Positions 57,786 through 61,458 of a DNA stretch of 64,000 nucleotides are shown here, one piece after another. The position numbers were made by a program, and so were the translations under genes. The DNA lies in contig NZ_JASHHX010000020.1 in NCBI RefSeq assembly GCF_030056575.1, positions 1-64,000 on the forward strand. The letters run 5' to 3'. The notes under the pieces were generated by a model that saw nothing but the letters and a program-made list of their open reading frames with translations, ran no database searches and was not told where the DNA came from. The stretch is from Rhodoblastus sp. 17X3 (GTDB lineage Bacteria > Pseudomonadota > Alphaproteobacteria > Rhizobiales > Beijerinckiaceae). Every line of letters starts with the position of its first letter. Position 1 is the first letter of the stretch.

Positions 57786-58352
57786 CTAGAACTGCGGCTT
57801 GCGGTAATGCGCGAGATCGGCGGTCGGCGTCACCGATTCCGGGTCGTAATCATGCTGCGCCAATTCGCGCGCTGTCTTGTCGCCGGCCGCCGCCGACTTG
57901 TCCACCAGCGCCTTGCCGAGCGCGCGGTCCTGCGCGACGCCATGGCCGCGCAGCAGATCGAGGCCGTAATTCAGCTGACCGATCGACGAGCCGGTGTCGG
58001 CCAGGCGCTTGTCCCAGTCCGCCGCCCTGGCCGGGTCCGAGGGGCGGTCATAGCCGTTTTCCTCGGTCCAGGCCGCCCAGGGCACGGCGTAAACGTTGTT
58101 ATGCTCCGCGCAGCGCTCGAAAATGCGCCGCGCCGCGTCGTGCCAGCCCATCTTGGCGAGGGGATAGCCATACATGCACATGCCGGGGTCGAAGCGCGCC
58201 TCCTTGGACCGCTCGACCCAATATTCGATACTCAGCTCGGACGGCGGGTTGAGCGTTCCGGAGTCGTCCACGCCACTGGTTTCGGCGCGCGCCGGCGCCG
58301 CGAAGGACGCCCCGGTCAACAAAGTGGCGATCAAAAGCCTTTTGCCGATCAT
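57786..58352 (-). CDS. Secreted Sel1-like protein, copy A
   Basis: The 188-residue protein has a signal peptide (MIGKRLLIATLLTGASFAAP, cleavage near ARA-E). Mature residues include RIFERCAEHNNVYAVPWAAW and GQLNYGLDLLRGHGVAQDRAL, the Sel1-repeat type (alpha-helical solenoid), and a distinctive C-terminus ARELAQHDYDPESVTPTADL. It is clearly a paralogue of the gene directly upstream (58385-58942), with the same Cys and motif order. A secreted interaction protein is likely. Its position downstream of pqqA and the two-component system is notable. Confidence 0.75.
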   Translation of the reverse strand: MIGKRLLIATLLTGASFAAPARAETSGVDDSGTLNPPSELSIEYWVERSKEARFDPGMCMYGYPLAKMGWHDAARRIFERCAEHNNVYAVPWAAWTEENGYDRPSDPARAADWDKRLADTGSSIGQLNYGLDLLRGHGVAQDRALGKALVDKSAAAGDKTARELAQHDYDPESVTPTADLAHYRKPQF

Positions 58353-58384: not shown

Positions 58385-58942
58385 TCAGAACTGCGGATGG
58401 CGATAGCGCGCCTTGTCGGCCTCGGGCGTGACCGATTCCGGATCATAATCATGCGCGATCAGCTCGCGGGCGGTCGAATCGCCGCCGGCGGCCGCCAGGT
58501 CGATAAGGGATCTGCCGGCCGCGCGGTCGAGTGGTGCGCCATGGCCGCGCAACAGGTCGAGGCCGTAATTGAACTGGCCGATCGGCGAGCCGGCGTCGGC
58601 GAGGCGCTTGTCCCATTCGGCCGCCTTGACCGGGTCGGAGGCGCGGTCGTAGCCATTCTCCTCCAGATAGGACATCCACGGCATGGCGTGCAGATTGCCG
58701 TTATTGGCGCAGCGCTCGAAAATGCGGCGCGCCTCCTCATGCTGGCCGGTCTTGTCGAGGAAGACGCCGTAGCCGCACATGTGCGGGTCAAAGCGCTCTT
58801 CGGTCGATTTCGCCGCCCAATATTGCATGTCCAGCACCTGAGGGTTCAGCTCCCCGACCTGTTCGGTCGCTGAAGACCCGGCGATGGCGGGCGCGACGCC
58901 CAGGGCGAGGACGAGCGCACAGGCTGCAAGAACGAGTCTCAT
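58385..58942 (-). CDS. Secreted Sel1-like protein, copy B
   Basis: A predicted 185-residue paralogue of the downstream gene. The signal peptide is MRLVLAACALVLALGVAPAI. The mature part has HEEARRIFERCANNGNLHAM, YDRASDPVKAAEWDKRLADA and the repeat FNYGLDLLRGHGAPLDRAAG, then ARELIAHDYDPESVTPEADK. Both copies share motif order and two cysteines, indicating a recent tandem duplication. ATG 58942 follows GGAG by six bases, better than the longer frame to 58954. Confidence 0.75.
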   Translation of the reverse strand: MRLVLAACALVLALGVAPAIAGSSATEQVGELNPQVLDMQYWAAKSTEERFDPHMCGYGVFLDKTGQHEEARRIFERCANNGNLHAMPWMSYLEENGYDRASDPVKAAEWDKRLADAGSPIGQFNYGLDLLRGHGAPLDRAAGRSLIDLAAAGGDSTARELIAHDYDPESVTPEADKARYRHPQF

Positions 58943-59039
58943 CCGCATCTCCAATCAGTCGTCGGCCGCCTGCTCCAAATGCAAAATGGCCGCCCCGCGC
59001 AGCGGAAGCGACCAGAGCGTATGGAGGAAGAACGAAGGG

Positions 59040-59073
59040 GCCGACGCGGCGTGGAAGGATGCGCCGCGTCGGC
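59040..59073 (-). other. Strong stem-loop just after pqqA
   Basis: GCCGACGCGGCG and CGCCGCGTCGGC (12 bp, perfect) enclose a 10-base loop, starting about eight bases after the pqqA stop on the minus strand. It lacks a T tract, so it may stabilise the pqqA transcript or partly attenuate downstream reading. Confidence 0.75.
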
Positions 59074-59080
59074 AAAAATG

Positions 59081-59158
59081 TCAGATTTCAGCGGACATAT
59101 AGGAAGTGACTTCCATGCCGCAGCAAACTTCGCAAACTTCCGGAGCGGTCCAGGTCAT
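59081..59158 (-). CDS. pqqA: PQQ precursor peptide PqqA
   Basis: A 25-residue peptide beginning MTWTAPEV and ending GMEVTSYMSAEI, with Glu16 and Tyr20 in the E-x3-Y arrangement that PqqE crosslinks to build pyrroloquinoline quinone. AAGGGAGA precedes the ATG by six bases. Three cysteines at residues 9, 12 and 13 are unusual among PqqA peptides I know. It is too short for ordinary gene finding. No pqqB, pqqC, pqqD or pqqE gene lies beside it. The two-component genes upstream and Sel1 genes downstream give a methanol-oxidation-like context. Confidence 0.9.
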   Translation of the reverse strand: MTWTAPEVCEVCCGMEVTSYMSAEI

Positions 59159-59272
59159 AGCTTTCTCCCTTTGAAAGACTTGTTTCGTCGAGCGTCTTCG
59201 ACGCATGACCTTTTATAGGCAAGCCCCCGGCGCGATGCGTCAGCCGCGCGCGAGAAAATTGTAAGATTTTTG

Positions 59273-59977
59273 TCAGGCGTCCTCGTCATAGCGGTAGCCG
59301 ACGCCATGAACCGTCTTGATGATGCTGGGATGGGCGGGGTCGATCTCGATCTTGCGCCGTAGCCCGGAGACATATTGGTCGAGCGCCCGGCTGTTGGGCA
59401 TGTAGTCGCGGCCCCAGGCGGCGTCGAACAATTCATCGCGCGAGACCGCCTTGCCCTTGCGGGCGCTCAGGGCCTGAAGGATCGCCAGTTCGCGCGGCGC
59501 GAGGTCGATGCTTTGCCCGCCGCGCCACGCGCGCAAAGCCTCGGGGTCGATCTCCAGATCGCCCATGCGCAGGCGCGCCGGGGAGCCGGCCGGCGCGCCC
59601 CCCGGAGCGGGGACCGCGCGGGCGCGGCGCAGCGCGGCCTTGATCCGCGCCACCAGCTCGCGGGCCGAAAAGGGCTTGGCGATATAATCGTCGGCTCCGA
59701 TCTCAAGCCCGATCACCCGGTCGATCTCGGCCCCGCGCGCGGAAAGCAGCAGGATCGGCGTCTGGGCGTCGCGCGCGCGGATGCGGCGGCAGAGGTCGAG
59801 CCCGTCGAGATGCGGCATCATCACGTCGAACAGGCACAGCGACGGCGCTTCCTCGGTGAAGGCGCGCCAGGCCGCCTCGCCGTCTTCCGCGACGATGCAG
59901 TCTATGCCCTCCAGCGACAGCAGATCGACCAGCCCGGCGCGGAGGTTGGGATCGTCTTCGGCGATGAGAATTTTCAT
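59273..59977 (-). CDS. OmpR-family response regulator
   Basis: A 234-residue regulator: receiver with acceptor D51 (SLCLFDVMMPHLDGL) and conserved K in YIAKPFSARELVARIK, a Gly/Pro/Ala-rich linker, and a winged-helix DNA-binding domain (LAPRELAILQALSARKGKAV, RDYMPNSRALDQYVSGLRRK, HPSIIKTVHGVGYRYDEDA). ATG 59977 (MKILIAEDDPNLR) overlaps the kinase stop by 4 bp, so it is translationally coupled. The kinase above is its probable partner. It may control pqqA, which lies 115 bp downstream. Similar pairs (MxbDM) regulate methanol oxidation in Methylobacterium. Confidence 0.9.
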   Translation of the reverse strand: MKILIAEDDPNLRAGLVDLLSLEGIDCIVAEDGEAAWRAFTEEAPSLCLFDVMMPHLDGLDLCRRIRARDAQTPILLLSARGAEIDRVIGLEIGADDYIAKPFSARELVARIKAALRRARAVPAPGGAPAGSPARLRMGDLEIDPEALRAWRGGQSIDLAPRELAILQALSARKGKAVSRDELFDAAWGRDYMPNSRALDQYVSGLRRKIEIDPAHPSIIKTVHGVGYRYDEDA

Positions 59978-61458
59978 CCTTTCCCCTCGTCGGGTTTGGC
60001 CTCGATCGTGGCGCGCGCGCAAAGGCCAGGATCGGTGCCGCTCAGCGCGAAACCGCCGCCATTGGCGCGCGCCAGTTCCTGCACGATCGAAAGCCCGAGC
60101 CCGTGCGACGGTTTGACTTCGGCGCCCTGCGACGCGGCCGCCCCATAGTCGCGCACGGCGAGCGCGAGCAGACCGTCGCGCCAGTCGATGGCGACGTCAA
60201 TCCTCCCCGGGGCGTATTTGCGGGCGTTGTCGATCAGATTGACGAGGATGCGCTCGAAAGCGCCGGCGTCGAAACGCAGCCGCGGCTGCGCGCCGCAATG
60301 CACCTCGCAATAGCAGCCCGAAGCCGCCATCAGCTTTTCGTAGCGGGCGACCACGCGCCGCGCCAAAGCGCAAGGATCGCCAACGGAGGTTCTCGGCGGC
60401 GGGGCCGCGCCGCGATCGCCATGAATGGTTTCGCCCGCCAGCGCGTCAAGCCGGTCGATTTCCTCCGACAGCACGCCGCAATAGCGATTGACTTCCGGAA
60501 CGCCGCCCGCCTTGCGCGCGATGAGTTCGGCGTAGAGTTTCAGATTGGCGAGCGGCGTACGCAAATCATGCGACAGCCGCGCGGCCAGCGCGGCGCGTGC
60601 AGCGTCTTCCGCCAGCCGCGCCTTTTCCGCCCGGCGCGCCTGCCAGACCAGCAGCAGCCAGACCAGCGCGAGGGGCGCGGCGAGCGCGAGTCGGCCGAAC
60701 GCGCTGTGGCTCGGCGCCGGCGCGCCCCCGGCGTCGACCGCCCAGCCGTGCAGGGCGCCCGTCTGGACAAAGGATTCAAAGCCTTCGGGCGCCTCACCCT
60801 TTTTCCAGATCACCCTGTCGAACGGATCGCGCAGGCGAAAGGCCCAGCCCGGATAGGCCCGGCTGCGCGCGTTCAGGGCTGCGATCATAGTGGGAAAGAC
60901 GAAGCGGCTGTTGAGCGCGAGACAGGTCTCCTTGCGCGCGTCGCCCGCGCCGATGCGGCGGCATTCGAAATAATAGGCGCCGGACGCATTGGGGAACCAG
61001 CCATTGACGAAATCGCCATCGTGCAGAAGATTCGCCGCGTCGATCAGCGTGCGCAGCTTTTCTTCCCACATTTTGGGCGCGGCGAGCGGGTCTTCCGGCG
61101 GAAACAGCGTGCGGTCGCCTTCGCGGATCAGCACGAGCAATTCCATGTCATAGCCGGAAATGACTCGCCAGAGCGCCTGCGGCGGATCGAGCCCCTCCGC
61201 GGTCGCGCGCGCGACATTGATCTCCGCATATAGCGCGAGTTCCGTCACCTCGTTCGCCGCCGCGTAGCCGAGCGCCTCGGCCGCCCGCTGCGATTGACGG
61301 CGCGCGCTCTCCCGCAGCGCGAGATAATCGGCGTCGAGCCATTGCGCGGCGAGAAGGGCGACGAAGGCGAGCGGCAGGGCGTAAAGCAGAGCCTGCCGGG
61401 CCGTCGCCGCCCAGTTCTCGCGCGAGAGCGGCGGAATTTTCGCGCCGCCAGTGGTCAA
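59974..61458 (-). CDS. Membrane histidine kinase
   Basis: A 494-residue sensor. TM1 is at about 22-42 (LLYALPLAFVALLAAQWL), a periplasmic domain of about 210 residues (45-253) with several aromatic residues, and TM2 at about 257-275. Then a HisKA helix with phospho-acceptor H297 (AARLSHDLRTPLANLKLYAE) and ATP-binding domain (N-box LVNLIDNARKYAPG, G-box SHGLGLSIVQELARANGGG). Its start overlaps the MxaD-like gene stop by 4 bp, and its stop overlaps the regulator. The signal sensed is unknown. Confidence 0.92.
   Translation of the reverse strand: MTTGGAKIPPLSRENWAATARQALLYALPLAFVALLAAQWLDADYLALRESARRQSQRAAEALGYAAANEVTELALYAEINVARATAEGLDPPQALWRVISGYDMELLVLIREGDRTLFPPEDPLAAPKMWEEKLRTLIDAANLLHDGDFVNGWFPNASGAYYFECRRIGAGDARKETCLALNSRFVFPTMIAALNARSRAYPGWAFRLRDPFDRVIWKKGEAPEGFESFVQTGALHGWAVDAGGAPAPSHSAFGRLALAAPLALVWLLLVWQARRAEKARLAEDAARAALAARLSHDLRTPLANLKLYAELIARKAGGVPEVNRYCGVLSEEIDRLDALAGETIHGDRGAAPPPRTSVGDPCALARRVVARYEKLMAASGCYCEVHCGAQPRLRFDAGAFERILVNLIDNARKYAPGRIDVAIDWRDGLLALAVRDYGAAASQGAEVKPSHGLGLSIVQELARANGGGFALSGTDPGLCARATIEAKPDEGKG

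Follow-up and report, generated by a model that had tools for sequence, protein, structure and literature searches.

Additional pqqA genes have been reported in several methylotrophs. For example, Methylorubrum extorquens AM1 carries the orphan copies pqqA2 and pqqA3, with changed expression, and Methylovorus sp. MP688 holds five pqqA copies (PMC11317620). The Methylophilaceae have from 3 to 12 copies (PMC4109929), and the three copies of the Beijerinckiaceae bacterium RH AL1 respond to lanthanides (PMC10848612). Five pqqA genes were also found in a methanol-grown PQQ producer, one of them in a pqqABCDE set, one in a pqqADE set and three standing alone (PMC9851590). With regard to control, MxbDM and MxcQE of Methylobacterium and AgmR and PedS2-PedR2 of Pseudomonas govern PQQ dehydrogenases or the pqq operon (PMC5784242, PMC9260416, PMC12997753). 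In one species the supply of PqqA was reported to be rate-determining, and earlier work that called pqqA dispensable had left the orphan copies unexamined (PMC11317620).

The orphan gene described here and the array upstream of it bear on the question of why methylotrophs retain more than one pqqA. This question becomes testable because the orphan has a conserved array, of a kind also placed ahead of pqqC and pqqB, with a candidate regulator alongside. The gene lies in a 64,000-nucleotide stretch of Rhodoblastus sp. 17X3 DNA, hereafter the window, on the contig designated C13 of genome G000.

An extra pqqA gene away from the PQQ biosynthetic loci

The gene is located at 59081..59158 on the minus strand. 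Its translation from 59158 to 59081 gives the 25-residue peptide MTWTAPEVCEVCCGMEVTSYMSAEI followed by a stop codon, and the plus-strand reading of the same bases gives an unrelated product. The peptide scored 42.1 bits against PF08042 (curated cut-off 21.1, Pfam) and 38.5 bits against TIGR02107 (curated cut-off 20, NCBIfam). It presents Glu16 and Tyr20 within GMEVTSY, in the E-x-x-x-Y spacing, and cysteines at positions 9, 12 and 13. The Glu and Tyr of PqqA are the residues crosslinked by PqqE. The original prediction had called a PqqA gene here from its ATG, ribosome-binding site and GMEVTSY motif, and had noted the three cysteines, naming neither the strand nor the two-component pair and the array nearby. 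This call was borne out on the minus strand, and the comparison with curated PqqA that it proposed placed the peptide above the cut-off of both families.

An orthologue, identified by its neighbours, was present at the orphan locus of all 11 Rhodoblastus genomes, each of which gave a PqqA match. Among these 11 orthologues, pooled pS was 0.300 and pN 0.075, a pN/pS of 0.25 that is rough because just 75 bases enter it, and the variable sites were distributed over the three codon positions as 5, 4 and 11. The gene is under purifying selection. A spurious open reading frame was rejected for 59081-59158 on account of the profile scores above the cut-offs and the conservation of the orthologues. The locus is a true extra pqqA copy, encoding an ordinary PqqA peptide in an orphan position, and the peptide most likely serves as a precursor that is converted to PQQ.

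The PF08042 search of the whole genome returned four pqqA matches, on C13, C5, C1 and C23, whereas 14 control genomes gave no match at all. Genome-wide profile searches placed pqqB, pqqC and one pqqE on C1 and a second pqqE over the cut-off on C23, with no pqqB, pqqC or pqqE match on C13; four additional pqqE matches and a weak pqqB match on C12 were below the cut-off. The pqqD gene was seen on C1 and C23, at the loci read there. The gene order on C1 was pqqA, pqqB, pqqD, pqqE, a PedF-type cytochrome, a periplasmic-binding-protein-like gene and a PQQ alcohol dehydrogenase. We take the last three to be XoxG, XoxJ and XoxF, the family searches on the same genes giving only PedF, substrate-binding protein and methanol/ethanol dehydrogenase. 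The pqqC gene was also on C1, about 7 kb away from pqqE and apart from pqqABDE. In addition, the genome yielded five PQQ alcohol dehydrogenase matches, four of them over the cut-off. Across the genus, pqqC and pqqE were each found in 11/11 genomes, and so was pqqB with pqqD beside the operon pqqA. The window copy is thus an orphan, since the pqqABDE operon, pqqC and a pqqADE set lie elsewhere in the same genome. The absence of pqqB-E neighbours noted in the original prediction agreed with the lack of pqqB, pqqC and pqqE matches on C13, and the whole-genome search for pqqBCDE and further pqqA copies that it suggested settled in favour of the first of its two readings, an orphan or extra copy with its partners elsewhere.

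The remaining pqqA loci of this genome differ in their surroundings. The C23 locus (L098, G000:C23:163000-177000) holds a pqqA-pqqD-pqqE set without pqqB or pqqC adjoining, neighboured by SerC-like, dihydroorotate-dehydrogenase-like and radical SAM genes. The same PqqA type, together with a second pqqE, is carried by G005 to G008, and a pqqA-D-E set also occurs in G123. On C5, another orphan pqqA (L096, G000:C5:97059-97115), encoding MAWTTPELCEICVGMEVTSYLSAEI, lacks the array; a gene for a PQQ alcohol dehydrogenase lies about 3.6 kb away.

The second reading of the original prediction, a related peptide with a cysteine-based modification, fared less well. Glu16 and Tyr20 were retained in 11/11 orthologues at the orphan locus. 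The operon PqqA of the same genome, identical to the orphan at 21 of 23 aligned residues, shares Cys9 and Cys12, so that such a modification is unsupported, two of the three cysteines being present in the operon copy as well. Beyond the genus, 26 of the best-scoring PqqA-family loci (L070-L095) were sampled, of which 25 yielded 26 readable peptides and L073 none, and an equivalent of Cys12 was found in 24 of these 26 peptides. Position 13 of the orphan peptide is Cys in 6/11 orthologues and Val in 5/11, and this residue is the sole orphan-versus-operon difference common to all six Cys13 genomes. The neighbouring proteins searched with Pfam (six in addition to PqqA) and with NCBIfam (five) included no recognizable modifying enzyme, and the profile search gave no PqqE-type radical SAM match on C13. 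A cysteine-modified peptide was consequently rejected as the main reading, in view of the Cys9 and Cys12 shared with the operon copy and the frequency of Cys12 in the family.

A further pqqA copy was observed in G007 (L110:2432-2509, on G007:C101), encoding MTWTAPDVCEVCCGMEVTSCMSAEI, with Tyr20 replaced by Cys and the cysteines kept. Having lost Tyr20, its product should be unable to give PQQ, and the gene may be either a copy in decay or an artefact of assembly. It was left out of the 11-orthologue counts on the basis of this replacement, the lack of a match to the neighbours of the locus and an upstream region that did not align with the array; no array was seen in that alignment.

The upstream array and its 17-bp core

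The orphan gene is preceded by a ribosome-binding site, GGGAG (59165..59169, minus strand), six bases 5′ of the ATG and found upstream of all 11 orthologues. Further upstream, TATAAA (59212..59217, minus strand) is a possible –10 element located downstream of the array. TATAA occupies this position in 5/11 orthologous sites (G000, G001, G002, G004 and G005), the other six differing, and a scan for sigma-70 consensus promoters upstream of the orphan reported none. On the other side, a 12-pair hairpin (59040..59073, minus strand; –26.4 kcal/mol, z –5.45 against 200 shuffles) begins seven bases past the stop codon. It is followed by a terminator-like hairpin with a T-rich tail (58987..59014, minus strand), from a scan of 601 bases that gave two overlapping sites against a shuffle mean of 0.6. 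The orphan pqqA is probably monocistronic, with a predicted promoter of its own.

The alignment of the regions upstream of the orphan orthologues revealed a conserved block. The array at 59232..59275 (minus strand) is composed of four 11-bp half-sites, TGACAAAAATC TTACAATTTTC TCGCGCGCGGC TGACGCATCGC, and we predict that a response regulator binds it as its operator. The neighbouring response-regulator gene ends inside the array, the first TGA of which serves as its stop codon. Tandem repeats with a period of about 11 bp are typical of OmpR/PhoB-type regulators, and the binding sites of OmpR-type proteins resemble one another among members of the family.

The pattern AWTCTTACAAWWTTCT, derived from the conserved block upstream of the orphan and allowing at most one mismatch, had 15 matches in the 11 genomes and none in the reversed control: 10 at the orphan, by construction, two in the pqqA-pqqB gap of the close relatives G000 and G005, and three elsewhere. 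The sequence AATCTTACAA was seen upstream of pqqC, where the extended motif was found in 11/11 genus genomes with 0 to 2 mismatches. Searched with at most one mismatch, the 17-bp core TGACRAWWWTCTTACRA gave 32 matches in the 11 genomes, 25 of them at pqq loci, and the reversed-pattern control gave none. These matches comprised 10 at the orphan pqqA, 10 at pqqC, four in the pqqA-pqqB gap (G000, G004, G005 and G007), one on C23 and seven at other places. All 22 exact matches were at pqq loci (the orphan, pqqC, pqqB and one pqqADE), a figure that is partly circular because the core had been derived from known sites at pqqA, pqqB, pqqC and C23; the orthologous sites are also not independent of each other. 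The one-mismatch matches were divided into three at pqq loci and seven elsewhere. Base composition predicted about 0.01 exact and 0.54 one-mismatch matches over the 11 genomes, the latter exceeded by the seven non-pqq matches. What stands firm is that the exact core occurs four times in a single genome, always at a pqq locus.

The individual sites are not alike in form. With at most one mismatch, the core precedes pqqB in just 4/11 genomes. Its distance from pqqB within the pqqA-pqqB gap is about 1.1 kb in G004 and about 0.2 kb in the other three (G000, G005 and G007). The four-step form found at the orphan recurs at the pqqB site of G000, the two upstream regions being alike beyond the 17-bp core. 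The pqqC site contains only the first half-site and part of the second, between flanks that differ from those of the orphan. On C23 the exact core is about 210 bp upstream of the pqqA and oriented away from it. In G009 the kinase-regulator pair and pqqA are kept and the array has three mismatches. By array scoring, both the operon copy and the C5 copy of pqqA in G000 lack an array, as does the operon pqqA of G070 and G123, these three operon copies being the ones scored. Likewise, none of the stretches examined at PQQ dehydrogenase genes (on C20, C26, C5 and C23:200000-214000) matched AWTCTTACRAWWTTCT with at most two mismatches.

Among the one-mismatch cores, an orthologous pair (G000:C2:53973-53989 and G005:C1:76304-76320) precedes glyoxalase and GMC oxidoreductase genes, loci that are possible further members of the regulon. 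At the one-mismatch core of G004:C3, the one nearby protein scanned gave no family match.

The presence of a likely shared binding site before other PQQ genes suggests, from the placement of these motifs, a control switch for cofactor supply. Moreover, the core provides a 17-bp sequence tag that can be used in searching related bacteria for a PQQ regulon.

Neighbouring genes and a second genus

The response regulator (59273..60022, minus strand) has the OmpR/PhoB-type architecture of a receiver and a Trans_reg_C domain (PF00072, PF00486), with orthologues in related genomes. It is preceded by a sensor histidine kinase with HisKA/HATPase domains according to Pfam (59974..61458, minus strand), whose N-terminal sensor region would be periplasmic. 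Regulator and kinase were near the orphan pqqA in 9/11 genus genomes, all but G001 and G010. In these two the pair is elsewhere in the genome and the array is kept at the orphan, so the linkage between the pair and the orphan is not absolute. In G003 the regulator and pqqA are about 0.9 kb apart.

The kinase sensor region had no credible Pfam match. It was found in 14 of 150 genomes, namely 11/11 Rhodoblastus, G031 and G070 of the genus g22, and one weak match with internal stops, and two of its cysteines were invariant in 14/14 aligned sequences. The structure model of this region had a mean pLDDT of 77.9, and the best matches of the fold search were sensor domains such as those of KinD and CqsR, a resemblance that serves as a lead only because the TM-scores were about 0.3-0.5. 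When the kinase was compared with plasmid records, 218 records were returned, none covering 80% of the query, and the best 10 of 218 matched the kinase core only.

A similar association was observed in g22, in the four genomes of that genus with a PqqA match (G031, G070, G123 and G100). In G031, G070 and G123 a kinase and a regulator (62-70% identity for the regulator) are divergent from a pqqA. In G100, where the arrangement was seen partly, a partial kinase (28% identity over 109 residues) lies at a similar distance from pqqA, and no regulator was seen. G070 and G123 hold a pqqA-B-D-E operon elsewhere in the genome. Upstream of all four g22 orphan genes there is a four-step array with an 11-bp period, whose fourth step starts with TGAC. 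The four-step scores were reached by 0 of 6493 control windows in each of the four genomes, and the two-step scores by 0, 11, 124 and 11 of 6493 (G070, G031, G123 and G100, respectively); the control windows overlapped and came from six stretches, and the scoring weights were taken from Rhodoblastus. A paralogous kinase-regulator pair was noted in G005 (L182, G005:C39:40000-54000), with an array-like stretch behind the regulator and then a DUF3047 protein, without pqqA.

Downstream of the orphan are two tandem relatives, here named SelA (58385..58954, minus strand) and SelB (57786..58352, minus strand), both with weak Sel1 repeats below the cut-off; the signal-peptide-like start of SelA suggests that it may be secreted. 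At least one Sel1-like gene was near the orphan pqqA in 10/11 genus genomes, with none in the 10 kb read in G009. Homologues of SelA were found at 33 loci, eight in the genus and 25 outside it. The eight genus loci all carry the orphan pqqA, and none (0/8) has an XoxF match. Of the 25 extra-genus loci (L045-L069), 23 are beside XoxF, XoxG or XoxJ matches (21 with XoxF and two with XoxG/XoxJ only) and two have none, and pqqA is present at two (L045 and L058). As judged from gene neighbourhoods, this context of SelA ties the orphan neighbourhood to methanol-type dehydrogenases, and the Sel1-like proteins are perhaps an unnamed accessory of the xoxF-type enzymes.

Candidate functions and comparison with known systems

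The explanation that we favour, and hold with reasonable though not full confidence, is that the orphan pqqA acts as a regulator-driven supply of precursor for shared PQQ enzymes, controlled by the neighbouring kinase and OmpR-type regulator through the four-step array. The gene would be transcribed from its own promoter, with the regulator most likely binding the array and presumably activating rather than repressing. The kinase would respond to a signal, perhaps some small molecule linked with alcohol oxidation, and so increase both the precursor peptide and the processing enzymes, as suggested by the site of the same kind before pqqC in the genus and before pqqB in several species. The peptide would then be crosslinked between Glu16 and Tyr20 by PqqD/PqqE of the pqqABDE operon or of the C23 set, and the resulting PQQ could serve the PQQ alcohol dehydrogenases of the genome. 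A stronger form of this explanation, to which we give tentative credit while leaning against it, proposes a dedicated two-component system for PQQ supply. Its kinase would sense PQQ or a periplasmic product of alcohol oxidation and switch a private pqqA together with pqqC and pqqB, the orphan being the control knob in at least two genera.

A different assignment of the array would leave the orphan under some other regulator and the adjacent pair in charge of something else. The genomes G001 and G010, in which the array persists at an orphan without the pair, fit such an assignment, as do the similarity of OmpR-type sites within the family and the different neighbours of the paralogous pair in G005. 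We nevertheless regard it as unlikely, given that the pair accompanies the orphan in 9/11 genus genomes and does so again, differently arranged, in the second genus, with both genes in three genomes and a partial kinase in the fourth. The orphan could also be a redundant duplicate without special regulation, which matters for gene dosage only and inherited its array from the pqqB promoter by duplication; the 21/23 residues shared with the operon copy and the likeness of the orphan and pqqB upstream regions past the core speak for it. This origin seems improbable, however, because the core also precedes pqqC between different flanks, the second genus has a four-step array of the same 11-bp period next to this regulator pair, and the operon pqqA lacks such an array in the three genomes scored (G000, G070 and G123).

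The peptide might also have ceased to be a PQQ precursor and have become a cysteine-modified product, a signal or a metal ligand. Cys13, which distinguishes the orphan from the operon copy in 6/11 genomes, and the further G007 copy, which lost Tyr20 and kept its cysteines, are compatible with such a change of role. We consider it very unlikely, since Glu16 and Tyr20 persist in every one of the 11 orthologues, Cys9 and Cys12 belong to the operon copy as well, position 13 is Val in 5/11 genomes, and the neighbours scanned include no modifying enzyme.

With regulator-driven precursor supply as the preferred reading, the locus can be set against the systems described above. It resembles the orphan and extra pqqA of methylotrophs, in which several pqqA genes are usually accompanied by one set of the other pqq genes, as far as the accessible parts of those papers describe. 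It departs from them in its surroundings, as the same parts describe neither a two-component pair adjoining the orphan nor an operator shared with pqqB or pqqC (PMC11317620, PMC4109929, PMC10848612). The methanol-grown PQQ producer is alike in layout, C1, C23, C13 and C5 here matching its combination of a set, a pqqADE group and separate pqqA genes. However, it is another organism, pqqC is here apart from pqqABDE, and the control of its separate pqqA is undescribed in the portion of that report at hand (PMC9851590). MxbDM/MxcQE and AgmR/PedS2-PedR2 are set apart from the present pair by their descriptions, which in the parts available place no orphan pqqA beside them (PMC5784242, PMC9260416, PMC12997753). 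In the open-licence literature searched, no orphan pqqA was described as accompanied by a two-component pair of its own and by an operator of the kind that also serves pqqB and pqqC. The orphan pqqA as such is already known from other bacteria, and the new part is its arrangement with a regulator pair and a shared array.
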